Assembly (NCBI GenBank): GCA_028279215.1
Contig: JANQOF010000008.1
Location: 1 to 41,346, forward strand
Direction: 5' to 3'
Length of the DNA stretch: 41,346 bases
Source: Pirellulales bacterium
GTDB lineage: Bacteria > Planctomycetota > Planctomycetia > Pirellulales > Lacipirellulaceae
The translations under genes were made by a program, and so were the position numbers. The notes beneath the pieces are model-generated. The model was not told where the DNA came from. It did not search any database and saw only the letters and a list, made by a program, of their open reading frames with translations. Below, piece by piece: positions 14,781 to 37,524 of this stretch (the stretch's first letter is position 1; every line of letters begins with the position of its first letter).

Positions 14781-16802
14781 TCACGGACGTGCTGTACTCA
14801 TGGACCTTTCGACGCCTGCCCACGGTGGCGATCGCGGCCACGGAAACGAACCTCGGATAGCTAGAATGGTTAAAACCGTGCTCAGGCCGGCGGGCTCAGG
14901 AACGGACAGGAGAGTTTCGAAGGACCCGCCCCCTGTGGCCGACTCGTAGGCTTGCTTGAATAGGACGAAGTCGGTCAGGTCGTTGTCCAAATCGCCGTCC
15001 AAGTCACCTTTCTGAAAGGCCTCAAGCGACGTCATCCCCGTGAGGTCCGTGCTTTGCCCACTGCGGAACATCAGCCAATCGGCCAAGCTAATTTGGGCGT
15101 CTCGATTGAGGTCCGCAAGGCTTAGCGCGCCGCCAAGCACGTAGGGAACCTCTTCGCCAGCGTTGATTGTCAGAGGACCATCAGGAGTCGTGATGGCGCC
15201 GTTGGAGTAGATCGGTCCGGTGGCGTTGATCCTTAGCTGCCCTGAACGCAGGGTGGCGAGCGGCGCGTCGACTTCATCGAGCCAGTTGAGCATCTTATCG
15301 CCTAGATCGGCGACAACTGTCGGGTTCGCGTCAGTGACGTCGGTGGATTCAGAGATATCGGCGTCAAGGTCGTAGAGTTCGTACGATTGGTCTTCGTAGT
15401 TGTACATCAGCTTCCACTTGCCCGATCGCACCACCGTTTGCGGTCGTTGATCGCGTCCACTGCCAATCAGATAGCCTGGCAGATGCCAGTACAATCCATC
15501 ACGCCCCAGCACGGCGTTGTTGTCGGCCAGGATGCCGGAAATGTCTTCGCCGTCCAGCGTTACTCCGGTCGGGTCTCCCGCTTCGGAAAGCGCCGCAAAC
15601 GTCTTGTAGAAATCGATGCCCGCGACCGGCGTGGAATTCACTGTGCCGCCGTCAACGAGATTGGGGTTGCCGCTCCATGCGATCAGTGGAACACGGATGC
15701 CACCTTCGTCGAATTCTCCCTTACGGCCCTTGAGAGGGCCGTTGTTGCTTTGTGGCAAAGCTCCACCGTTGTCAGAAAAGAAGAAAACAATCGTGTTATC
15801 GTCCAGCATGCTTCCTGGGTTGTTGGGGTCAGGCGTTGTTTCCAGATAGTTGATCAGCCGCGCAACACTCTGGTCCATGCCTTCAATCAATGCCGCGAAC
15901 GAAGCGTTGCTGTCCTGCACGCCGTCGGGCTTGTTCTGATACTTGTGGAGCAGGTCGTCACGAGCCTGGTTGTTGCCGATTGGTGTATGGACGGCGTAGG
16001 GGTGGAACTGCACATAGAAGCTGCCGCTCTTTTCTTGTTCCATGAACTGGATCGCCGCGTCCGCCATGGCGTCCGAAACATGCTTGTTCGTACCAACGAG
16101 CGCGTCGATTTGGGCGACGCTGGTGTTTACGGCATAAGGCTTTATGTTGTTGTCGACATACTGCTGGGTGTAGTTGCCGGCGAAGAGGTCGAGCTCGGGG
16201 CCAATTTCGCCGGCAAAATTCGTGCCGTTGCTGTGGTAGCTTCCGGGGTTGCCTGCCGTCGTTCCGCCAAAGTTCTGGTCGAAACCATGGTCCGAAGTAA
16301 TGAGTGCCGCCCCGCTCGTTCCGGTTTCGGTGACGTGAAACTTGCCATAGTGTGACGTCGTGTAGTTTGCCGACTGCAGCATTTCGCCGAGCGTGAACGC
16401 ATGGGTCGGAATTGCATCGGTCCCGGTGGGTAGGCCTTGCGATGGGCCCACCAACAGCGTCCCGCTCCCTCCTCGATCGAGATTGTTGACCAGGTAGACG
16501 TTGTTTGTGGGCCGCGGGGCGTACTGGCCAGTCAAGATCGCGGATCGGGTCGGTGCGCAGTTGGGGCCATTCGTGTAGGCGTTGGTGAACGCCATCCCCT
16601 CGCTCGCCAGGCGGTCAATCACTGGGGTTTCGTAGAAATCACTTGGATTCCCAAGATTTGTGAGCGAGTTGCTTGTGTCTGACCAGCCGAGATCGTCGGC
16701 CATGATGAATACAATGTTCGGTTTTGCTACGACATAATCAGCTGTGACGCAGCAAAAAGCAGCTCCAAGGATTAGCTGTAAGACCGCACAGCGCACGTGC
16801 AT
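14781..16802 (-). CDS. Secreted sulfatase with dockerin-like and PEP-CTERM end
   Basis: A 673-residue type I sulfatase. After the signal peptide (ILGAAFCCVTADYVVA) come the metal-binding aspartates in MADDLGW (residues 34-40) and the active-site motif CAPTR (82-86), whose Cys should be converted to formylglycine. Further landmarks are a KFHVTE-like segment, HTPIG and a SDNGG metal site. About residues 565-640 form a dockerin-like calcium repeat pair (DLNRDAQISLADW and DLDGDLDNDLTDF), followed by SVPEPAGLSTVLTILAI, the start of a PEP-CTERM signal. The expected end of that signal (FVSVAAIATVGRRRK) lies in another frame, so the C-terminus appears frameshifted near 14850. It sits between a lipoprotein gene and a PEP-CTERM gene and probably desulfates an extracellular glycan. 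Confidence 0.92.
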   Translation of the reverse strand: MHVRCAVLQLILGAAFCCVTADYVVAKPNIVFIMADDLGWSDTSNSLTNLGNPSDFYETPVIDRLASEGMAFTNAYTNGPNCAPTRSAILTGQYAPRPTNNVYLVNNLDRGGSGTLLVGPSQGLPTGTDAIPTHAFTLGEMLQSANYTTSHYGKFHVTETGTSGAALITSDHGFDQNFGGTTAGNPGSYHSNGTNFAGEIGPELDLFAGNYTQQYVDNNIKPYAVNTSVAQIDALVGTNKHVSDAMADAAIQFMEQEKSGSFYVQFHPYAVHTPIGNNQARDDLLHKYQNKPDGVQDSNASFAALIEGMDQSVARLINYLETTPDPNNPGSMLDDNTIVFFFSDNGGALPQSNNGPLKGRKGEFDEGGIRVPLIAWSGNPNLVDGGTVNSTPVAGIDFYKTFAALSEAGDPTGVTLDGEDISGILADNNAVLGRDGLYWHLPGYLIGSGRDQRPQTVVRSGKWKLMYNYEDQSYELYDLDADISESTDVTDANPTVVADLGDKMLNWLDEVDAPLATLRSGQLRINATGPIYSNGAITTPDGPLTINAGEEVPYVLGGALSLADLNRDAQISLADWLMFRSGQSTDLTGMTSLEAFQKGDLDGDLDNDLTDFVLFKQAYESATGGGSFETLLSVPEPAGLSTVLTILAIRGSFPWPRSPPWAGVERSMSTARP

Positions 16803-16865: not shown

Positions 16866-17321
16866 TCATTCTCGTATATCTAGTGGCAAGAAGTTCTCGC
16901 CAGATTCCGTGATTTCGATTGTGATTTTTGATTGAGTGTTGTACTGGTCTGGGAGGTACTGCTCGCGGTTTCGTTCCTCCAGGCCCGACTCAGGGTCGAT
17001 GTATGGCTCGCCAACATCCCGCATCGCCTTGATCTCTACGCGATACATTCCTGGAACAAGCCCAGGGGTGCTTGGCACACGGAATTCTCCATCCTGTATC
17101 ACTGCGCCAGCGGCTTGCCCCCTTCCGGTTGGGCGAAAAACAATATGGCCTTGTGGCAAAGGTTTACCCTGATAGTGCACGGTCCCGGACACCCCCTGGC
17201 GCCCCGAGCTACTTGAGCACCCGCTAACTGCCCCGCAACCGAGAACGACTGTGAGCAAAACGAACGGAGAATACAAAAAGCAACTCGGGTTGCATTCGCT
17301 TATGTTAGAACGGAGAGTCAA
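16866..17321 (-). CDS. Small lipoprotein with carboxypeptidase-regulatory-like fold
   Basis: A 151-residue lipoprotein with hydrophobic signal and lipobox AVSGC (Cys near residue 35). The mature part has [28 protein letters not shown] and a final beta strand, the pattern of small planctomycete proteins with a transthyretin/carboxypeptidase-regulatory-like beta-sandwich. These nearly always follow a DUF1559 gene, as here; the function is unknown. The TTG at 17321 has GGAG six bases upstream and overlaps the DUF1559 stop by 17 bases, so translation is probably coupled. No ATG is available before the lipobox. It precedes the sulfatase gene by about 60 bases. Confidence 0.85.
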
Positions 17322-18339
17322 AAGTCTCTCCTCGATTCATCGTGCTCATCGCTTGCCACACAACAAGCTCAACATCGTCCGACACAAAGTGTGTTGAGGC
17401 GTCGCACATCAGAGCATGCACTCCACCAGGATGTCGGCTGCGGGAACTGCTGTAGCTGATTGAGTTAGTCTTCGTGCCATTGCCGCCAAGTCGTACGCAC
17501 GGGGCATCTGGCAGGTCTTCCCGGCAGTGTCCCTCATCAGGCGCCGAGCTATTCGGTGTGAGAAAGGTTGTAAGGTTACTGCACCCAGCCTTCCGACACC
17601 AAATACGTGCTCGACGATCGCAATCTGATTCCCCTTGAGTTTGAACCATCTCCATCATTGCGAGGGTGTTGCTTGTGCCGTCGGTAATCTGCGATAGCTT
17701 GGCCCCAAAGCTCATGTGGAATGGGGCAATATGCACGGTAGCTGGCGCTAGCGGAGCCCCAACAAGGCAATCCGGATGAGGAGCATCGATGTCTGGCTGG
17801 CGTGGATACTGGCAGGTGTATCGCCAAGCTCCCCAGTTGATGCCGTAGTTGCCCTTCCAGTCTTCTCCCGGCTGGCCTGAGTTACACGGCTTTGCGGTCT
17901 TCGGCTCATCACTTGGACATTGATATGTGGGAAGCAGCTTCCCCACGGGGCTGTTGAGGTCGTTGTACTGATCCCTTGTCGACCGGGTGAAGTCGTATGC
18001 GTCAAAGAGCGCGCCTTCCTCCATGTAGGGGAGCACGAATGGCGGGAAAGCAGTGTTGACCTCGTTGCTATTGCCGCGAACCGTAGACAAACTGCTCGTC
18101 TTGGGGTCGTATCCCAGGTTGCCGGGGGGAAGGCGCTTGTTCGCGCCCTCGTAGGAGTGCAGTGCGATGCCGAACTGCCGCAAATTGTTCAAGCAGTGGG
18201 ATCGCCTAGCCGCTTCGCGTGCGGCCTGAACGGCCGGCAGCAACAGCGCAACCAAGATCCCGATGATTGCGATAACGACCAGCAGTTCAACAAGCGTAAA
18301 TCCGGCGCGACAACGTCGGCGATCTTTAGTTCGACTCAT
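17305..18339 (-). CDS. DUF1559 pseudopilin-like protein
   Basis: A 344-residue DUF1559 protein. It opens with the type IV prepilin-type methylation motif [20 protein letters not shown], which would be cut before Phe by a prepilin peptidase, continues with [16 protein letters not shown], and has the conserved C-terminal H-x-G-G-V-x-x-L-M-C-D-A segment. Planctomycetes carry dozens of these genes; a role in type II-secretion or pilus-like surface structures is inferred from the N-terminus only. The ATG at 18339 has GGAAG with suitable spacing; an in-frame ATG at 18351 is possible. It begins 19 bases after the stop of the large PEP-CTERM gene and overlaps the lipoprotein gene, so all are one transcription unit. 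Confidence 0.92.
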
Positions 18340-18358
18340 TCTTTCTTCCATGCGGAAT

Positions 18359-21064
18359 TCACGGCTGAGGACGATGGCGTTGTCTGCGTATGATTAGGCA
18401 TGTCACAGACAAGGCCGCTAGAGTTCCTGGCGGTTCTGGTACCGATAAGGCTGCAACGCTTGCGCCGGAGGCGCCGTAGTTGTTCTTCCAAACACCGTAG
18501 TCAGCCGCGTCCACGACTCCGGCGCTATCGCCTGATTCATCGCCGTTGCCGCTCAACGGGTTCGAGGACCCAAGGTTATCCCGCCATACGGTGTAATCTG
18601 CGACGCTAACCATCCCGTCAGCATTGAAGTCGCCGGGCAGACCCGGTGCAGAGACGTACGTCACAAGGCCAGTTGTCTCGATAGCGCCTTGGCCCGCGAT
18701 GTGGTACACGAAGGCCAGATCCTGAGTCGAACCAGGAACAAACGCGTTACCGAGCGAAATTTCCCCAGCAGCGTTGGTTATTACCGACGAGCCGGTCAAG
18801 AACGATTCGATGATCTCGGTGTCGTCGTTGTTATCGGCGGCTTCCCATCCAAGGCCATCGTTGTTGCCGGCGGGGAAGCCGGCGGCGCCAGCCAACCCGG
18901 TATATGCCCCGCTTGTTAGCGAGCCGCCGTCAAGTTCAACGTCGGAGCTGGTGATACGCAAGTAGTCGATGTCTATCGAGAGCGCCGCGTTGTTGTTCGC
19001 CAACCGGATTTCCCCAGAATCGGTCGACACGATGAGTGTGAGCGGTTCGGGAACTGGCGCATTCGAGGTTGTGATAGAGAAGTTGTCGATCGCTTCGACA
19101 ACGTTGCCTAGTGTTGAATCAGCATCACTATCTCCAACGGTGAAGCCGGCAAAGCCGCCGCTTGCGTACAATCCCGAGTTCACAACGCCAGCTGCGGACT
19201 CAGTCCGTAGCAGCGCTGGCGTGTCGGTGCCGGTGGCGCCCAGGTCAAACACACTGCCCACGATATCGAACTGATCCGGCAAGGCGGTTCGTGTGATTTC
19301 CATGGTCATGCGGTACCAGTTGCCAGTGGTAAGGTCAAATGCATCCGTACCTGGAGTGTCAGCAACAAGATTGGCGCCGGTTGTCGAATCAGAATTGCGG
19401 ATCGAAAGTCGCTTTGAATTTCCCGTGCGCAAAAGGATGGAGAGGCTGTCGACGGGAGGGGGGCTCCCGCCAACACCAACCTCACCAAGAGGGTTGACGA
19501 TCCCTAGCCGCGGCGTTGCCGCCGAAGTGACATCGTCTGCGAGGAATTCGTATTGGAGGGTAATGATATCAGCCGTGACCCTATCAGACGCGGTTCCGCC
19601 GTTTGGGGCATAGATGAAGAGTCCGTCACGGTCGTCGGCGCTCGACCCAGCACCGCCATCGTAGGTCAACGCCCCCGACCCTCCGACGCCACCAGTAGCG
19701 TTATGTCCAATGATCGGATCAAAGTCGGGGTCTCCCAAAGCGACGCCTAAGCCGTCGGTGATCAAGAAATCATCCTGGTCGGTGCTCATATCAAAATCGA
19801 CCGTCGCCGACGTAATCTGAGCATCTACTTGAGTTGGGGAGAGAAAAACACATGTCGCGATGAGTCCAGCGGCCGATACCACAGATAACCTTGTATTCGT
19901 GTTCATAGCGCTTTTGCGATAAGTGGAGCGGGGAAGAAAATCTTGCTGGGCGAGATCGACACGCGAATTCGCGATACGCCTTCTACGGTAAACGCCAGCG
20001 AATCCAACTAAGCTGAGCACCGCCAGCATGCTCGAGCTGGGCTCAGGAACCGCAAGCAACGTTGCGAGCGCTCCCGAGCCATTGGCGGCGTTGAAGATCG
20101 TTTGGAAGTGTAAGAAATCCGCCAAGTCGTTATCGCCATCGAAGTCTAAGTCGCCTTTGGCGTAGGCTCCCATCATGGTTTCTGAAGAAAGGTCCACACC
20201 TTGTCCGGACCGGAACGCCAACCAATCAGCGGCGTCAATGGTGCCACCACTGAAATCGAGGTCGGCCAATTCAAACTGGCCGCCCGAGCCATCGTGGATA
20301 ACAGCCGTGTCCGTTACGACGACTTCGTCCACTAGTCCGTCGTAGAGCCGAAACGTCCCGCCCGTCCCACGGTTGGCGCCAATCCGTAGATCTTCGATTG
20401 CAAACCCACTCCCCGCTGTGCCTGTCGACGAGATGGTCAGCTGCGATAGCTCGTCGCGCGTGAAAATTACGGCCGTGTTGGTTGCCCCAAAGAAAGAAAT
20501 CGACAGCTGTGTCCATTGGTCGGCGGGCACGTTGGCGCCTGGAATAACTTCAACGCCGGGGGGCGTGAAACGGGTGAAGGTTGTCGATCCGTCGCCGAGG
20601 CCACCATCAACGGTTGCCCCATTGTCGATCTGCCAATCGCCGATCCCACCACCGACAGGTGTCAGCGACGAAACAATGCCCCGCGAGCCCTGCCCATCGT
20701 TTGTGAACGCCGCGCTCGGCTTGACCCAAAGTGACAAGGAGAAGTCATCGCCTACGGCCTGATCGGGGAACTCGGCTCCTAGGAACTCGATGAACTCGCC
20801 TGTTCCGCTGTCGAATTGCGTGAAGTTTGCCGAACCAAGCCCGGCAGACACGCTGGGCACATCTGTGGATTGCGTGATATTCCCGAAGCCAGAGGCGCTT
20901 GTGATCACCCCATTCAATCCAGAGCCGCTGGTTTCTTCCGTGAGATCCAGACCGTTCTCAAAATCGAGTCGCAGCAACTCAGCCCCCGTTGCAATAGTCG
21001 CGAAGGTGGCGATCGTTGTTGCGACTACTGGGATTGCAAGACGACAACGAAGTGATGCACTCAT
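18359..21064 (-). CDS. Fused multi-module PEP-CTERM exoprotein with internal sorting and signal sequences
   Basis: A 901-residue ORF without internal stop. Module 1 (residues 1 to about 360): signal peptide ending in TGAELL, LamG-like domain, dockerin-like repeats ([27 protein letters not shown]), then [19 protein letters not shown] + RRRR at about 337-365, a complete PEP-CTERM signal. Module 2 begins at Met387 (19906) with a new signal-peptide-like stretch ([17 protein letters not shown], ending VDAQ), followed by a beta-rich domain paralogous to the 13772-14704 protein up to VPEP at about 670. Here, instead of a membrane segment, it runs into module 3, a beta domain with a dockerin pair and a final VPEP + RRQRHR end. 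First gene of the operon. A real fusion, a lost stop codon or independent starts are all possible; I could not find a strong ribosome-binding site at 19906. Confidence 0.85.
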
Positions 21065-21703
21065 GAATACGAGATTCCTTGCTTGGAGTGGTTCGGATGG
21101 ATCCTGGTGCCCCATCGTTCATGAAACGGAGCCATGCGGCTGAAAATCGCAGCACGACCCTGCCCCGATTCTCTACAGCAACTTGGCCACGACTCCTGTG
21201 TCCCGGTAGTCACCAAGATGACATACTGTCGACGAGCCATAGTTTTCCCAAAATTCCTCTTCGGTTGAAGGCGATGCGCACTCAAAACCGGGTAGAGTGG
21301 TACAAGAACAGAAACTTAGGAGCATTGCTGCCCGACAAGTGGAGGCGGTACGGCATTGGTAGGAGCCGACTGGTCCTCTAGACGAGAACCCTCCACGGTG
21401 CCTTTTGCTGTACAAACTAAACCGAGAAAATCCTCAATTTCGTTGGTCAGCTCACTATTGAGGCGTTCGGGCCAGACTTCGGACCGCATCTGTCGATAGC
21501 CGTCACTCTCGGTGTTGATCGTCGAATTGCGGGTGCGGTCACGGCGCCACTCGCTCGAGGTGCCGCCAAGCATGCTGTGGCTGCATTATGGCGTTGGCCC
21601 AAAAAAAGAGGCAAGACGACCAGGATTCGATGTACAGCGAAGCGTGGTATCCAGGGTTTCTTGTGGTGTTACCTGCAGGTACCGCGAGTGCACACTACTG
21701 AAT
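21065..21703. other. Divergent control region between PEP-CTERM operon and sigma gene
   Basis: These 639 bases separate two divergent operons and should hold both promoters. I see no clear consensus. A minus-strand frame at 21316-21573 (85 residues) is polar, matches nothing I know and lacks a ribosome-binding site, so I do not call it. The size is generous for a simple divergent promoter. Confidence 0.4.
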
Positions 21704-30077: not shown

Positions 30078-30812
30078 TTAGACGGCGGACGTGCGTCGAC
30101 GCCAGTCGACCAAGCAAGCGACTAGAATTCCGAGACCACTCAACACAACGGTAGCGGGCTCGGGCACTTGATTAAAGCTCAAGTTATCAATCGCGTGACG
30201 ACCATTGAGTGGGTCGCTCACGCCGTCCAAAACCAGCGTATAGCTTTCGCCGAGCGCGCCAGTGAAGTTCGGTGTGACGGTGATGACGTCGCTATCTGGA
30301 TTGGTGAGGGAAACCTGCTGACTCCAAACCACATTATCGGAAGAGTCGGTGAGCGATAGATCCCAGGTGCTCGAGTCGCTCGTTTCTTCTGTATTGCCAA
30401 AGTCGAAAGAGTTCAACACCAGGGCGTAGCCTGGGTCGGCGGCAAAACCAATCGAATGATAATCAAAGTCGAGTTGGCCAACGCGCTCATCGGGGCCTTC
30501 GTTGTCCCAATCTCCGCCACCCACGGTTTGATTCTCGATTTCCGCAAAGAAATCCGAAGTATGAATGTCCCATCCATTGCCGCTTCCACCACCGTCCTGC
30601 CCATCGATGTCCCAAGTCAAAGTAATATTGGGAGTTGCGCCGTTACTTACGACCAAGCCATTGCTATCCACCGTGGCGTTCGAGCCATAGTCAATGGGTA
30701 CGGTGGTGTTACTGCCTCCAAGCTGGCCGAAACCGAGGATCGTGGCATGACTGGCTCTGGTAGCCGCAAGCATGGCAAGGCATGCTGCAATCATCACAAA
30801 ATGTCGGGTCAT
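30078..30812 (-). CDS. PEP-CTERM secreted protein, single module
   Basis: A 244-residue exoprotein: signal peptide (VMIAACLAMLAATRASHA), a beta-rich domain of about 185 residues, then VPEPATVVLSGLGILVACLV followed by WRRR, a textbook PEP-CTERM signal for exosortase handling. It is a close paralogue of the first module of the 31151-33904 protein: both contain FGQLGGSN, VVSNG(A/T)TPNITLTWDIDG, WDNEGPDERVGQLDFDYHSI and RHAIDNLSFNQ. In the large protein that alignment continues into another domain exactly where this protein has VPEP. The ATG at 30812 has GGGAG ten bases upstream and is better than the upstream ATG at 30857. The domain function is unknown. Confidence 0.9.
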   Translation of the reverse strand: MTRHFVMIAACLAMLAATRASHATILGFGQLGGSNTTVPIDYGSNATVDSNGLVVSNGATPNITLTWDIDGQDGGGSGNGWDIHTSDFFAEIENQTVGGGDWDNEGPDERVGQLDFDYHSIGFAADPGYALVLNSFDFGNTEETSDSSTWDLSLTDSSDNVVWSQQVSLTNPDSDVITVTPNFTGALGESYTLVLDGVSDPLNGRHAIDNLSFNQVPEPATVVLSGLGILVACLVDWRRRTSAV

Positions 30813-31150
30813 TGGATCTTTCTCCCTAGTGTGTGACACGAGAAACAAACAAAACAACTAAAGTGAATCTGTTGAAGGTTCAGCCGCCGCGGGACTAAGT
30901 TCACGCATGACTCATGCGATGGTTGACCAATGTTGAGCCCACCAAGAATCTCCAAAGGACTTGTCCACCGCACATTTCGGATGGCGCATGCGATGGGCCT
31001 TCCTGATGTCCACTTATCAAACTCCATGACGAGTGGAAGGGAGAATTGACCGGCGGGCCATACTACCGACGTCTCTCTGCCCAAGCAGATCGACGCTGCC
31101 CTATTTTCGATAGTTGGTCCACCGAGCAATTCCCTTAGTGTGTCCGGCAA
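30813..31150. other. Intergenic region between two paralogous PEP-CTERM genes
   Basis: This 338-base gap holds the upstream region of the single-module gene. A minus-strand frame fills most of it (113 residues, no signal peptide, no family resemblance, no good start site), and I do not accept it as a gene. A promoter for the single-module gene is likely here but not recognisable. Confidence 0.4.
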
Positions 31151-33904
31151 TCAAGAGCGCTTCGATTGCTCTACGAGCATCTGATCCGACGGACTGATAC
31201 CAACTTCGCGGCCAAGCGGTGTGCCGCGCCGCGCGAGCCATCTGCACGCTGACCAGCGCCGCAGGAGGGTCGCCACAGCAGCGGTGCTACACAGTAATAG
31301 GGCGGCATTCGGCTCGGGCACGTTCGCTGTATTCAAACCACCGAGCAACAGCGCGCTCGCGCCAAAATTGTTCTTCCATACCGTATAGTCTGCGTTGGTT
31401 ACGCTGCCGGGGGTGGAGTCATTTGGCAAGGTAGTGTCGGCGTCTAAGTTGTCGCGCCACACCGTGTAGTCCGCTAGGTTAACGGATCCATCGCCGTTGT
31501 AGTCGCCGGCCACGCCAGGAGCGACGCCAATGTAGTCGACGCGCGCGTTGTAAACTTCGCCTTGTGAATTGGTCCACAGGAAGGTCAGGTCTTCAATGCC
31601 GGAAACACTGTTGTAGGCGCTACCAAGGCTGATGGGACTAGTACCGCTGGTAAGCGTGGTTTGGCCATTGAAGAAGGTTTCGACAAGACGATTGGAGTTG
31701 TTGCCCTCTGCCAGTTCCCAACCGTTACCGCTCCCTGTACCTAGCGGGAACATTGCGTCGCCACGTACACCGTTGAAACTCCCCGACACTAGCGATCCAC
31801 CGGGACTCTCAATTGTGTATCCATTCATGAATACGTTCTCCGCACCGGCCAAGTTATTGGCGAGCGTCAACTCGCCGGTAGCGCGGTCAACGGTGAGCAC
31901 CACGTCGCTCGGTCCGTCGAGCAGCCGGAACTCATGGCCGCCAATACGGCTTGTACTGGTTAGGGCTCCGGAAGCATCGGCTTCGGTGATTCGCATTGCC
32001 ACATACTGACCGGAGAATTCACCCCCAAGCGTGTAGGGACGAATGACGCTATCGTCGATCCGATTGTCCCCTGGAAGGAGCTCAACCACTGCGTCCGGGG
32101 CGCTAGTGGGAGCGACGCCACCAAAATCGCTATTGCTGAACCAGAACTCGAATCTACCTACCTTGTCGGCTGCCGGGTTACCACCCGTCCGCTGAGCGTA
32201 CGCAAACCAGTTAGCGGAAACCGATGTCCCATAGTCCATGAACACTACCGCGGCATCGGAAACGCCTGGCATTTCGCCGCCGATGGCGTACTGACCGAGG
32301 AAGCCACCGGGAAACAGGTCGGGGTCGGTGTAGTTAGTAGAAAACAGATCGAGTTCGACGCGGCCAGGTTCGTCCAGAATCGTGTCGTCGAATAACCGAT
32401 CGGGACTGGCGTTTTCCCCCTCATTCTGTTGTCCAGCAGGGATCGTCGTGATAGGTGTTGAACCGACTACGCTGAAGTTCTGCAGGGTCTGAGCCTGCGT
32501 CGACGAACCGGCGGCAACTACGGCAACAGCAATCAGCTTGGCAACGGTGCCGCGGAGATGCCGGGTCGTGCAAACGGCAAGAGCGACCAGCGCGATCAGC
32601 GTCACTGAGGACGGCTCGGGAACCCTGTTCGTTCCAAAGAGGGCAGTAGTGCCGCCGGCGAGTTCGACAAACACATTATAGTCGTGGATATCGCTGTCAA
32701 AGTCACCATCCAGGTCGCCACCCAGGTACGCCTGAGCAGCAGTCAATCCTGTGTAATCTTGCCCCAAGCCAGCGCGGAACAGTGGCCAGTCTTGGATATC
32801 CACGGACAAATCGCCGTTGTAATCGCCCCATGGAACCGGATCGCCCGTGTACTCAGTCCCAATGGCCAAGAGCGTTTCACTCTGGTCGAAGACCAAAATC
32901 CCCGCGTCTTCCCAGTTTGTCGGAGTAGTGCCGTCCAATTGGAAAGCCGGCAGTATGCTGAATGCCTGCCCCAAGTTGTACTGATCGCTTGCACTCAAGG
33001 ACACTCCATCATCAGCTCCCCCGATACCATCTTGCTCGCTGAGCGACGTAGCGGTTTCGGCTACAACCGTCCAAATGTCGTTAGGGTCGCCGTTGGTGCT
33101 TGTGATTGAATCCCAACCATCGGGGTTCAGAGCGGCACTAGGCGAGTGGATTTCGTACTCGCTAAACGAAAACGCCTGATCTGCGCGAATGTAAGCGGTG
33201 CCCGCGTCGGGACCACTACGGTTGACTACCAACGCCCCGATCGCGTTGGAGAGGTCTGGAATCTGATTGAAGCTCAGATTGTCGATCGCATGACGTCCGT
33301 CAATTGGGTCGCCCAAACCATCGAAAACAAGTGTGTAGTCTTCACCAAGCTCGCCAGTGAAATTGGGCGTGACGGTAAGCACGTCACTGTCAGGATTGGT
33401 AAGAGTTACTTGCTGGCTCCAGACTACGGTGTCTGAAGAGTCTATGAGCGATAGATCCCAGTTACTGGAGTCGATCGTTTCTTCGGTGTTGCCGAAGTCG
33501 AATGAGTTCAGTACGAGGGCAGCACCTGGATCAGCAGAGAAGCCAATTGAGTGATAGTCGAAGTCGAGTTGACCCACGCGCTCGTCGGGACCTTCGTTGT
33601 CCCAATCACCACCCCCTATTGTCTGGTTTTCGACTTCCGTGAAGAAATCGGAGGTATGAATATCCCAGCCGTTGCTGTTGGGATTGCCGTTGTTATTCTC
33701 GCCATCAATGTCCCAAGTTAGCGTGATGTTGGGTGTTGTGCCATTGCTCACCACGAACCCGTTACCGTCAGTTGTTGCCCGCGAAGCTAGTGTTTTGGGC
33801 ACTGGCGAGTTGCTTCCGCCTAGTTGGCCGAACCCGACAATGGTGGCGTGGCTGATGCCAGGCATAAAGAGGGCTGCTGCCAAGAAAACTGTTCGGTGCT
33901 TCAT
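31151..33904 (-). CDS. Fused multi-module PEP-CTERM exoprotein with internal sorting signal
   Basis: A 917-residue ORF. Signal peptide MKHRTVFLAAALFMPGISHA; module A (to about residue 215) is a paralogue of the 30078-30812 protein but its PEP site reads IPDL and continues into module B, a beta domain with dockerin-like repeats (DYNGDLSVDIQDW, DLDGDFDSDIHDY) ending in VPEPSSVTLIALVALAVCTTR at about 427-447. This internal PEP-CTERM-like signal is followed at once by a second signal-peptide-like stretch (KLIAVAVVAAGSSTQAQ) and module C, with a beta domain, a dockerin pair (DYNGDGSVNLADY, VTNADYTVW) and a final VPEP + RRW end at about 861. There is no in-frame start codon between B and C, so C can only be made from the fused ORF. 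The ATG has GGGGAG eight bases upstream. Confidence 0.87.
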   Translation of the reverse strand: MKHRTVFLAAALFMPGISHATIVGFGQLGGSNSPVPKTLASRATTDGNGFVVSNGTTPNITLTWDIDGENNNGNPNSNGWDIHTSDFFTEVENQTIGGGDWDNEGPDERVGQLDFDYHSIGFSADPGAALVLNSFDFGNTEETIDSSNWDLSLIDSSDTVVWSQQVTLTNPDSDVLTVTPNFTGELGEDYTLVFDGLGDPIDGRHAIDNLSFNQIPDLSNAIGALVVNRSGPDAGTAYIRADQAFSFSEYEIHSPSAALNPDGWDSITSTNGDPNDIWTVVAETATSLSEQDGIGGADDGVSLSASDQYNLGQAFSILPAFQLDGTTPTNWEDAGILVFDQSETLLAIGTEYTGDPVPWGDYNGDLSVDIQDWPLFRAGLGQDYTGLTAAQAYLGGDLDGDFDSDIHDYNVFVELAGGTTALFGTNRVPEPSSVTLIALVALAVCTTRHLRGTVAKLIAVAVVAAGSSTQAQTLQNFSVVGSTPITTIPAGQQNEGENASPDRLFDDTILDEPGRVELDLFSTNYTDPDLFPGGFLGQYAIGGEMPGVSDAAVVFMDYGTSVSANWFAYAQRTGGNPAADKVGRFEFWFSNSDFGGVAPTSAPDAVVELLPGDNRIDDSVIRPYTLGGEFSGQYVAMRITEADASGALTSTSRIGGHEFRLLDGPSDVVLTVDRATGELTLANNLAGAENVFMNGYTIESPGGSLVSGSFNGVRGDAMFPLGTGSGNGWELAEGNNSNRLVETFFNGQTTLTSGTSPISLGSAYNSVSGIEDLTFLWTNSQGEVYNARVDYIGVAPGVAGDYNGDGSVNLADYTVWRDNLDADTTLPNDSTPGSVTNADYTVWKNNFGASALLLGGLNTANVPEPNAALLLCSTAAVATLLRRWSACRWLARRGTPLGREVGISPSDQMLVEQSKRS

Positions 33905-34018: not shown

Positions 34019-35167
34019 CTATCGCGGTGCGATCTTTATCGCGCCTTCATCATTGCGAGCCCCCATCTGACGGAAGACTTCTGGGGCGACATCGAATTCG
34101 ACGCCTGATACCGAGCCATCGCACATCGAGAACAGGCATACACCAGGATGACTGCTGCCGAATATCTCTCGAGCAACGTACTGTCCGACGTCTGTAACTA
34201 CCTCTTCCATCGTCTCACTCGATGAGCGAGGCAAGTGGGTCGCCTTCCGAGGGACGCCCGTAGGAGAAACTCCGACATAGTACGTGGAACGCGCCATGTC
34301 ATCCTGAAAACCAACGTACTGGGACCAATCGTCTCCCTTGTAGAGCCCAGATTCATAATCCTCAGCAGGCATCCATTTCTCACCCAGGGCAATCGTATTC
34401 GTAAGACCATCAGTTACTGCACGCGACTTAATAGCGGTTCCACAGAACGATACGCCCGAGAACTCCTGCAAGCTCGGTGGAAATCCGACGGGGAACGTCT
34501 CGCGAACGTAGTTTTGAGGCGATATCTTTCGACACCGACTGCTGCCAGTGCGGTCGTAGTCGACATCGTCACCAACGCTAACTGCGTAGTCGCTGCGCGC
34601 GGCACTAGTGTAGGTGTATCGCAGGGTTCCTCCCTCGCCGTTGCCAGTTAGTGCCTGGCCACCGTGCGGATATGGGTATGGGCCTCCATCACGCCGAGAA
34701 GGGCAGTTGACAATTGGCACGGGCGTCGCGTCACGCAGCTGCAATTGTTCGATCCGCGCCGCGCCGGTCGCTCCCTGGCCCAAGTCGTGCAACGACTGGT
34801 GCTCAATAAACGGTAGTGTCACGAATAGCCACGAACCTGGTTGATTGGCCCCGCTCCCGCGGTCGGGATCGGAGTTCCATTCGCCAGGCCAGCCCGATGC
34901 GGGCCACTGACCAAAGGCGCTCTCGTGATTAAGCATGCCAAGGGTCAGGTTCTTGAGCCGCGAGGAACACTGGGTGCGCCTCGCAGCTTCACGTGCGGAT
35001 TGGACCGCAGGCAGCAGCAAGGCGATCAGAATACCGATGATGGCTATGACCACCAGCAGTTCCACCAGCGTAAAAGCAGATGCCTTGGAGGAAACCTCGC
35101 GAAATCGGACGACGCCCAGGGGCTCTTGATGTTCCGTGCCTGGTCGAGCGATGGGGTCGCTGTGCAT
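34019..35167 (-). CDS. DUF1559 pseudopilin-like protein
   Basis: A 382-residue DUF1559 protein. A hydrophilic leader of 31 residues, unusually long, precedes the prepilin-type segment [20 protein letters not shown], followed by QSAREAARRTQCSSRLKN. The C-terminal part has the typical SSHPGVCLFSMCDGSV motif. It lies 114 bases upstream of the fused PEP-CTERM gene, on the same strand, repeating the DUF1559 plus PEP-CTERM pairing seen in the first locus. The start at 35167 is the only ATG before the prepilin segment. The role is unknown; the N-terminus indicates processing by a prepilin peptidase and insertion into a pseudopilus-like structure or the membrane. Confidence 0.92.
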   Translation of the reverse strand: MHSDPIARPGTEHQEPLGVVRFREVSSKASAFTLVELLVVIAIIGILIALLLPAVQSAREAARRTQCSSRLKNLTLGMLNHESAFGQWPASGWPGEWNSDPDRGSGANQPGSWLFVTLPFIEHQSLHDLGQGATGAARIEQLQLRDATPVPIVNCPSRRDGGPYPYPHGGQALTGNGEGGTLRYTYTSAARSDYAVSVGDDVDYDRTGSSRCRKISPQNYVRETFPVGFPPSLQEFSGVSFCGTAIKSRAVTDGLTNTIALGEKWMPAEDYESGLYKGDDWSQYVGFQDDMARSTYYVGVSPTGVPRKATHLPRSSSETMEEVVTDVGQYVAREIFGSSHPGVCLFSMCDGSVSGVEFDVAPEVFRQMGARNDEGAIKIAPR

Positions 35168-35419
35168 CTTATTCGCCGTTGTGCCTATGTTGTTTCTTAG
35201 CCGCTCACTATGTCACACCAACTCGGAGACGTAGGTTGCGCTTCTTAACACGCTCTTTACATTGGCTGGGCGGCCTTCCGAGCCGCGGGAAAAAAGCGCG
35301 ACCAAAGTGGGCGTCGCGGTGTATACACAAGGTGTGGCGTGGTTGCGCCCTCAGTTCAGTAGGTCTTCGTGGCCGGACTGGGGTCGCTGGCCCGTGCTGG
35401 TCCGGTGGAGACTAACTAC

Positions 35420-36013
35420 ATGCAAAAGCAGCCAAGGGGCATTTCAACGAGCGACGAGAGCGATGGTGTGACGCACGATTCACGCTCGCGAGAGGACGGG
35501 GAGTTTGTCCAACTGCTGACCAAAGCTCAGCTCCCGCTGTTGAGATACATCACGTCGCTTGTAGGCGACCCACACATCGCGAGCAACCTTCTCCAAGAGA
35601 CAAATCTGGGGCTCTGGAAGAAACAGTCGGATTTCGAATTCGGTACGAGCTTCGAAGCGTGGGCAACGCGTTTCGCCTATTGGGAGGTGAGGGCATACCT
35701 GCGTGATCGCGGGCGGGACCGACATGTTTTCGGTGAAGAACTAGTTTCGCAGCTCAGCGACCGCAAGATCGCTGCGTCGGAATCTGACAACTTCGAGGCG
35801 ACGATGCAAACTCTGCGGGAGTGCGTGAAGAAGCTACAAGGATCACATCGTAGCGTTGTGTCGCTACGGTACAACGATGGCTTAAGCATCCAGATGATCT
35901 CCGGGCGACTGGGTAAGTCGCCCTCTGCGGTGAAAGGCGCATTACTTCGCGCACGTCGATCTCTACGGCGCTGCATGGAGAGAAGTGAGGCGGACGCACC
36001 ACCCGACCGGTAG
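35420..36013 (+). CDS. Sigma-70 family (ECF-like) sigma factor
   Basis: A 197-residue sigma factor of the same short type as the one at 21704. Region 2 includes LPLLRYITSLVGDPHIASNLLQE and FEAWATRFAYWEVRAYLRDR; region 4 includes LQGSHRSVVSLRYNDGLSIQ and a helix-turn-helix ending in AVKGALLRARRSLRRCM. The ATG at 35420 is preceded by GGAG nine bases upstream, which decides for it over an upstream ATG at 35369. It faces the DUF1559/PEP-CTERM genes across a 252-base divergent region and is followed 68 bases later by a single-pass membrane protein, probably its partner. Confidence 0.9.
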   Translation: MQKQPRGISTSDESDGVTHDSRSREDGEFVQLLTKAQLPLLRYITSLVGDPHIASNLLQETNLGLWKKQSDFEFGTSFEAWATRFAYWEVRAYLRDRGRDRHVFGEELVSQLSDRKIAASESDNFEATMQTLRECVKKLQGSHRSVVSLRYNDGLSIQMISGRLGKSPSAVKGALLRARRSLRRCMERSEADAPPDR

Positions 36014-36081
36014 GCAGTTGGATAGATTCTTCTCTCATATGTCTTCATTAGCAGAGACCAATCGGGGCGAGGGCACATTCA

Positions 36082-37524
36082 ATGACGGCAAAGCAACTAC
36101 GTGAGTTGGAACAACTTGTGTCGGACCTCTATGACGATGGACTCTCGTCGATGGAGACACAACGGCTCGAAGGACTGCTTCTCGATGAACCCGCCTTGCA
36201 AGATAAGTATCTCGGAATGGTTGACCTGCACGTCGGCCTGAGTGTAGCCGGCGAATCGCTAGCAAATCCCTCATCGGACGAAGAACAGTCCGACACCGTG
36301 TCGACCATTCCAGCGCACCTATCCATGGTCAGGGGATTCGTCGCTATCCTTGCCACCACGGCTTGTATCTTGCTTGCTGTTTGGATTTGGCATGGTTGGG
36401 ATTTCAGTGACTTACCCTCGCGAGTACCCGAATTGGCCTCACACGCTGATCACAAGCTCAGCGCTATTCCCACCATCAAATGCGTTTCGTGGAATGGCAC
36501 CACCTTCTCTCAAGACGTGGACGACTGGCAACCTCTCTCGGTCGTTGGCCCCGGCGTAATCCCCCTTCGCCAGAGCCGAGGAGAGATGGTAGATGGATAC
36601 TTATTGGAGTTGCCGCCCGGTTATCGTTTGGAACTAGTGACAACGTGCGATGCTACGGCCGAGAATTGCTTGTCTATTGAAGAGGTCTGGGCTGGTACGA
36701 CGCCATCGTCACGCAAAGTTACTTTTCACAATTCGGGGCAAGGTTCGAAGCCACGACACGCCAATCCTGCCGCGAAGCATCGTCGATTCGGTATCGTAGG
36801 AACTTGGGCCGATAGAAACGTCACCCAACAACCGCGGTTCTTTCTAGTAACTGCCGTCCACAAGCGCGTCGACCCAGGCCCAAATGAGGCATGGAGAGTA
36901 AGTGAGATGGCGGTGATGATCGAGGAGCCCGATGTGATTCAAATTGGGTGGGACGACAGCGGCCCTGCTCCGAGTACGGCCGGCGATGAAGACTTTGACG
37001 ATTTATCTGCAAGCATCTTCATCGTACCTATCGGCCAAACGCAGCGAGTTACGCCAGTGACGCCGGAGCTCGAGGTAGCGGCCGCACAGGTGCCGACAGC
37101 GGATCCAGACGCAGCGCCTGCGATTGGATCAACGGCGTACGAGATGATGCTGCCACCTGGATCGATTACGTTGTTCAAGGCCGCGTCAAACGCCTCGGCT
37201 CACAACGAGCTATTCTTGAGGAATGCGAAGGACGGCAACGTACTTTGGTCGGCTTCGAACAATCGTGGCAAGAGCAGCAATGTAGGAGGGGTGGCGCTAC
37301 GCAACCGTTCTGACTCATTTCAACGTATCTACCTGATGTCTTCACATCGCAATCCGGATGTCGAACTTGTGGAGCCCTCCTCTGCATCCAGGTATTGCCT
37401 TCTGTTTGAACAGACAGGCTACAATATTGTTGGATTCGACGATGGAGTCAGACCAGATGCTGATTTTGACGATGTGCGGGTCGGAATACTGCAATTTGAT
37501 TCCCAAATTGTATCTCCACAATAG
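36082..37524 (+). CDS. Single-pass membrane protein, probable sigma-factor regulator
   Basis: A 480-residue protein with an N-terminal helical region whose pattern (ELEQLVSDLYDDGLSSMETQRLEGLLLDEPALQDKYLGMVDLH) is the one seen at the start of planctomycete FecR-type regulators, a membrane segment at about 82-103, and a large outer domain of about 370 residues rich in beta strands. I do not see a clear FecR motif, so the outer part is unassigned. Position right after the sigma gene and the shared N-terminus with the 22426-24078 protein suggest an anti-sigma or sensor role. Nothing beyond the sigma-regulator pair remains intact downstream; decayed genes follow. Confidence 0.75.
   Translation: MTAKQLRELEQLVSDLYDDGLSSMETQRLEGLLLDEPALQDKYLGMVDLHVGLSVAGESLANPSSDEEQSDTVSTIPAHLSMVRGFVAILATTACILLAVWIWHGWDFSDLPSRVPELASHADHKLSAIPTIKCVSWNGTTFSQDVDDWQPLSVVGPGVIPLRQSRGEMVDGYLLELPPGYRLELVTTCDATAENCLSIEEVWAGTTPSSRKVTFHNSGQGSKPRHANPAAKHRRFGIVGTWADRNVTQQPRFFLVTAVHKRVDPGPNEAWRVSEMAVMIEEPDVIQIGWDDSGPAPSTAGDEDFDDLSASIFIVPIGQTQRVTPVTPELEVAAAQVPTADPDAAPAIGSTAYEMMLPPGSITLFKAASNASAHNELFLRNAKDGNVLWSASNNRGKSSNVGGVALRNRSDSFQRIYLMSSHRNPDVELVEPSSASRYCLLFEQTGYNIVGFDDGVRPDADFDDVRVGILQFDSQIVSPQ

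Follow-up and report, generated by a model that had tools for sequence, protein, structure and literature searches.

The window analyzed here, a 41,346-nucleotide stretch of DNA from a bacterium of the Pirellulales (family Lacipirellulaceae), contains an open reading frame (ORF) that probably specifies a polyprotein for export, with two PEP-CTERM surface proteins carried on one chain, a reading to which we assign a probability of about two in three. The ORF (positions 31151 to 33904, on the minus strand, as are all of its features given below) starts with an ATG preceded by GGGGAG and runs for 917 amino acids in a single stop-free frame; a preliminary description of this DNA had singled it out as a fused PEP-CTERM ORF. 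Each of the two modules consists of a signal peptide, secreted domains, a dockerin-like repeat, and a PEP-CTERM signal, and the modules are joined by a hairpin of two hydrophobic stretches with a basic loop between them.

Module 1 opens with a signal peptide (residues 1 to 20, 33845 to 33904) whose sequence predicts a cut at GISHA/T. Domain A follows (residues ~21 to 217, 33254 to 33844), as delimited by a similarity search of relatives, and then a beta-rich domain B (residues ~218 to 355, 32840 to 33253), recognized from the structure model and the sequence. The dockerin-like repeat of this module (32657 to 32839) was read from the sequence, and the dockerin type I profile PF00404 matches 12 of 16 fused proteins, a count given per protein and not per position. 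The internal PEP-CTERM signal begins with VPEPSS at residue 428 and includes the first membrane stretch (residues 428 to 446, 32567 to 32623). It is followed by a basic loop, TRHLRGT (residues 447 to 453, 32546 to 32566), delimited by the sequence and by comparison of junctions, and by a second signal-peptide-like stretch (residues 454 to 471, 32492 to 32545). This stretch runs into TQAQ at residues 469 to 472, as previously noted, and its predicted cut, STQA/QTL, is based on the sequence, the alignment, and the junction test described below. In module 2, domain C (31919 to 32482) has a weak likeness to the CBM32 or F5/8 type C fold in domain and Foldseek searches. A second type-B domain (31508 to 31918) was assigned by eye from its likeness to domain B of module 1 and from the model, and it is followed by a dockerin-like repeat (31355 to 31507) and the C-terminal PEP-CTERM signal (residues 862 to 884, 31253 to 31321). 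Both PEP-CTERM copies were recovered by TIGR02595 and the internal one, at residues 428 to 445, also by PF07589; the internal copy lies 490 amino acids from the stop and the terminal copy 56. The internal signal has the PEP motif, the hydrophobic helix, and the basic cluster that PEP-CTERM proteins require. Just downstream of the fused ORF lies an ordinary single-module gene (30078 to 30857, minus strand), identified by similarity search and sequence as a stand-alone paralogue of domain A, with a signal peptide, VPEP, a membrane stretch, and WRRRTSAV, soon after whose arginines it stops.

In the mechanism that we propose, signal peptide 1 would take module 1 through Sec, and the internal PEP-CTERM helix would stop the transfer, leaving its basic tail in the cytoplasm. 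The same basic tail would serve as the n-region of signal peptide 2, restarting export for module 2, and the second PEP-CTERM signal would end the chain. From its sequence, TRHLRGT is most likely both the cytoplasmic anchor of the one signal and the n-region of the next. Each such junction would cross the membrane twice, with all modules outside. Signal peptidase I would cut after A471 (STQA/Q) and free the N terminus of module 2, exosortase would cut at the PEP motif and free the C terminus of the preceding module, and one of the two cuts would suffice to part the chains. Equimolar mature surface proteins, one from each module, are the expected products, plus a small leftover membrane hairpin. 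To our knowledge, there are hardly any known examples in bacteria of cellular polyproteins cut by both a signal peptidase and a sorting enzyme. If this mechanism is right, the PEP-CTERM signal functions in midchain as well as terminally, gene-based counts of surface proteins are too low for these planctomycetes, and coexport in fixed proportion becomes testable. Exosortase activity in bacteria could also be studied on such a chain as a natural substrate, since a cut in one chain would yield two easily tracked products.

The fusion is conserved in relatives, a comparison that the preliminary description had proposed. A similarity search of 59 genomes with the window ORF yielded the stop-free fusion in 16 ORFs (the window ORF included) from nine genomes, all of one family. 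The 15 further ORFs, from eight other genomes, show 32 to 71% identity to the window ORF and are fused at the identical point. Fused ORFs were found in Aeoliella straminimaris ICT_H6.2, in Botrimarina colliarenosi Pla108, and in the Pirellulales metagenome-assembled genome SJ86; NCBI taxonomy places Aeoliella in the Lacipirellulaceae, Pirellulales. A lost stop or a sequencing error in the window ORF, the latter already considered less likely, is ruled out by this conserved fusion point. Domain C was found in 17 places in 9 genomes among the 43 genomes of the family that were searched. Sixteen of these are in fused ORFs, directly behind the hairpin, and the 17th is a partial copy in a 332-amino-acid frame of G001; module 2 is normally found in the fused position.

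The alignment of the 16 fused proteins also bears on whether the chain is cut at all. VPEP is invariant, the loop region always holds three or more lysines or arginines, and a small-x-A motif stands at the predicted cut in all 16, followed by glutamine in 15. An uncut two-module membrane protein, in which the hairpin permanently anchors the chain twice and the modules remain joined at the inner membrane, would need neither the PEP motif nor the cut site, and yet both are kept while the membrane stretches around them drift. Nor would such an anchor have need of exosortase, which is present in these genomes: the exosortase profile PF09721 matched 34 of 35 genomes in one search and 6 of 6 in another, including the window's own genome, G000, where the match lies at G000:C38:40911-41849. 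We consider the uncut form unlikely on these grounds, while noting that cleavage of the polyprotein is inferred and not observed and that a low-confidence structure model draws the hairpin as two helices (residues 433 to 446 and 453 to 463). In the hairpin that model has little reliability (pLDDT below 50 at residues 424 to 474), too little to show topology. Two further observations count against the polyprotein reading. The cut site of the window ORF is T-Q-A and not a strict A-x-A, and selection on the hairpin may be weaker than on the domains, as a rough comparison with the four closest relatives, with synonymous sites near saturation, gave pN/pS values of 0.51 for the hairpin, 0.62 for the loop plus second stretch, and 0.19 to 0.38 for the domains. 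As a side observation on the exosortases, the domain lies in frames of ~1740 to 1770 amino acids at G001:C91, G003:C1:1484638, G009:C2:93067, G014:C1:3441252, and G038:C58, and the other exosortase frames among the matches listed reach up to ~670 amino acids.

The preliminary description had spoken of a recurring architecture, and this proved to be an understatement. Internal PEP-CTERM junctions were collected from 91 ORFs in 29 genomes, 164 junctions in all; two of the 91 ORFs show just a single PEP site. Similarity to the window ORF served to pick the first 16 loci and a hairpin profile most later ones, and outside G000 and a second genome, G068, the junction counts are therefore biased upward. 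A second hydrophobic core is present in 157 of the 164 junctions. Counted from the end of that core, a small-x-A motif follows in 153 of 157 and a strict A-x-A in 110, whereas random windows from the same ORFs gave a core in 43 of 2,047, with small-x-A behind 12 of the 43 and A-x-A behind 7. In the first version of the test, where A-x-A could fall within the alanine-rich core itself, core plus A-x-A was found in 114 of 164 junctions versus 3 of 1,087 random windows; the repeat test counts from the core end. For the single-module genes of G000, a similar test found an N-terminal signal-like segment in 95 of 106 and a strict A-x-A in 50 of those 95. The loops between the hydrophobic cores have a median length of 10 residues; all 157 carry two or more lysines or arginines and 143 carry no aspartate or glutamate, a composition that fits the positive-inside rule for a cytoplasmic turn. 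Across these diverse junctions, invariance or near invariance is confined to the PEP motif, an arginine, a leucine, and the alanine that precedes the cut. Cotranslational separation of the modules by a frameshift or a ribosome-skipping (2A-like) signal was ruled out as next to impossible, since the junctions have no other invariant motif and the frame stays open across them; no supporting signal was found, and what can be said for it is that the window junction has no internal start from residue 435 to 544.

The same junctions allowed us to ask how far internal initiation might contribute. It had been claimed that no in-frame ATG, GTG, or TTG lies between the two modules of the window ORF. This is correct for residues 435 to 544, the next start-type codon being ATG545, but a GTG does occur at residue 434 (position 32605), inside the PEP-CTERM membrane stretch. 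Separate production of module 2 by ordinary initiation, which the preliminary description had judged impossible, is indeed unlikely in this ORF. A mixed scheme, in which the full chain is made and internal starts (GTG434 here and ATG, GTG, or TTG codons in loops elsewhere) also yield module 2 alone, is quite unlikely in our estimation. GTG434 is in frame, the second fused ORF of the window has an internal ATG404, and a start-type codon occurs in 81 of the 157 loops and, within G000, in six of nine. However, the remaining 76 loops have none, GTG434 lies within the first of the two hydrophobic stretches, and a start with a Shine-Dalgarno-like 4-mer is found in 18 of 157 loops, compared with 49 of the 95 starts picked for genes with one module. 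From the sequences, internal initiation appears unlikely at the window junction and is a possibility elsewhere.

A census that used TIGR02595 sites in place of the hairpin profile was made in G000, where 150 of 194 candidates were scored and at least 122 sites found. Of the 116 sites examined, 106 end 21 to 44 amino acids before a stop and two more at 56 and 72 amino acids; recoded stop codons were ruled out, given that these 106 end at ordinary stops within 44 amino acids. The C-terminal signal of the window ORF is 56 amino acids from its stop, so that the tail behind it (31151 to 31252) exceeds that of most sites in the genome, and the original stop there may have been lost. The eight other sites lie 313 to 980 amino acids before the stop, in seven ORFs, and all eight are followed by a second signal-peptide-like stretch. 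A regular-expression search added a ninth internal junction (L065, residue 349) that is absent from the 122 TIGR02595 sites. Five of the nine loops are compact (5 to 18 residues) and four are long (29 to 40), and three, including that of the window ORF, lack a start-type codon. With four long loops and six with such a codon, some of the G000 fusions may have arisen recently or by accident.

In G068, from another Pirellulales family, internal sites predominate: of 84 sites examined out of 98 TIGR02595 sites, 62 are internal and 17 terminal, and the other five are truncated at a contig end or intermediate between these classes. One frame of this genome (L127), open at the contig's 5' end, extends for 2,531 amino acids and holds ten PEP-CTERM motifs, nine of them internal; PF07589 matches it in ten stretches, and Laminin_G_3 and F5/8 type C domains are also present. 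Another long chain (L128, G086:C14) has seven PEP-CTERM motifs and six FGE-sulfatase stretches in 2,427 amino acids, a third (L137) has five motifs in 1,512 amino acids and comes from a single-contig genome (G003, in which 150 of 392 candidates were scored), and a fourth (L136, G091:C17) has four motifs and repeated modules. Within L128, and likewise within L136, the modules are highly alike, and by their sequences both chains look as if an entire PEP-CTERM gene had been duplicated in tandem and in frame. Hairpins were found in six Pirellulales families (f1, f2, f11, f13, f14, and f18) and in one genome elsewhere in the phylum, G273. A phylum scan of 244 genomes, with at most 29 candidates scored per genome, gave at least one full-cover stop-free hairpin outside the Pirellulales and beyond the window's own genome among the matches listed, namely that in G273. 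There, a sulfatase with a dockerin-like repeat and PEP-CTERM (L195) is hairpin-fused to a second module. The window itself carries a single-module sulfatase (14781 to 16802) that is similar by eye to the sulfatase of L195.

These chains weigh on the suggestion that such junctions are accidental, functionless fusions of neighboring genes through a lost stop or a base error. The long loops in G000 speak for it, as does the 23-residue linker of the second fused ORF in the window, which resembles a translated intergenic stretch. Against it stand nine internal PEP-CTERM signals in the one frame of L127, the five motifs of L137, whose genome is a single contig, and the identical point at which 16 ORFs from nine genomes are fused, which refutes it for the window ORF. 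It is possible for some junctions with long linkers, and as the explanation of the architecture we regard it as very improbable. On balance we lean toward the broader view that in the Pirellulales a share of the surface proteome, and in one lineage or more the majority of the PEP-CTERM proteins, is produced as exported polyproteins with two to at least ten modules, each junction being a dual-use hairpin (an exosortase signal and a signal peptide that share one basic cluster) cut by two proteases.

Parts of the proposed polyprotein mechanism have counterparts in known systems. In the Bradyrhizobium cytochrome b/c1 fusion FbcH, one chain contains an internal signal peptide that is cut after the preceding membrane helix; it differs in being made of respiratory proteins with a single junction and no sorting signal. 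Viral polyproteins alternate stop-transfer and signal sequences, and their internal signal peptides are cut by the host signal peptidase, whereas the window case concerns cellular bacterial genes with a PEP-CTERM signal and surface modules. The name of the profile NF033207, midcut-by-XrtH, describes a protein cut in midchain by an exosortase and suggests that such a cut was proposed previously; we know of no tandem repetition in that family. The window ORF is not a member (residues 419 to 471, E value of 0.0054, 16.8 bits where the cut-off is 45), and it is the only one of the 16 fused proteins matched at E values up to 1. The likeness to the PEP-CTERM/exosortase (EpsH) system lies in the PEP motif, the membrane helix, the basic cluster, and an exosortase gene in the genome. 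In its founding description (Haft 2006, PMC1569441), the PEP motif is placed near the C terminus "virtually without exception," and it is suspected that signals with much longer tails may be nonfunctional; in the window ORF, by contrast, the signal is internal and a second export signal comes directly after it. Another report (PMC12188702) concerns, in the passage at issue, two separate proteins. No description of tandem PEP-CTERM polyproteins was found in the titles and first lines of abstracts among the matches listed, a search that covered few subscription papers and preprints, and the literature search gave no bacterial precedent of use for the window architecture.

A dockerin had been described, and in the window ORF the match is weak (PF00404 at residues 799 to 830, E value of 0.23, 12.1 bits against a cut-off of 22.9); the 12 matching fused proteins, the window's included, were counted at E values up to 1, with a best value of 1.5e-8. 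The whole-protein structure model has a pLDDT of 64, and with this model the clearest single-domain Foldseek match is 7blg (E value of 4.8e-3, TMt of 0.61); better-ranked matches superpose poorly over long multidomain alignments, with rmsd above 16 Å. Judging by their titles, most of the top Foldseek entries carry CBM32 or a related domain. PF00754 was found in 3 of the 16 fused proteins, with a best E value of 0.065. From the model, a sugar-binding surface role of the modules is a guess with some support, and carbohydrate binding by module 2 in particular is suggested by a weak fold match. A Pfam match to MLTR_LBD at residues 830 to 887 was rejected, being below the cut-off and present in 1 of the 16 fused proteins.

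The preliminary description had pointed to a second fused ORF within 15 kb. The ORF at 18359 to 21115 (minus strand, 918 amino acids, internal PEP at residue 356 by sequence) is indeed PEP-CTERM-fused, but it makes a weaker case, with an internal ATG404 (position 19906) upstream of its second signal peptide and 23 residues from the arginines to that codon. Its first module has relatives in G001 (L206) and G014 (L207) that are likewise PEP-CTERM-fused. Genes with a prepilin-type N terminus adjoin both fused ORFs (34019 to 35167 and 17305 to 18351). On the opposite strand near the first fused ORF (35369 to 37524) are what we take to be a small-sigma-factor-like gene and its membrane-anchored partner, and an ORF near the contig end (39855 to 41252) presumably resembles an IS21-type transposase.
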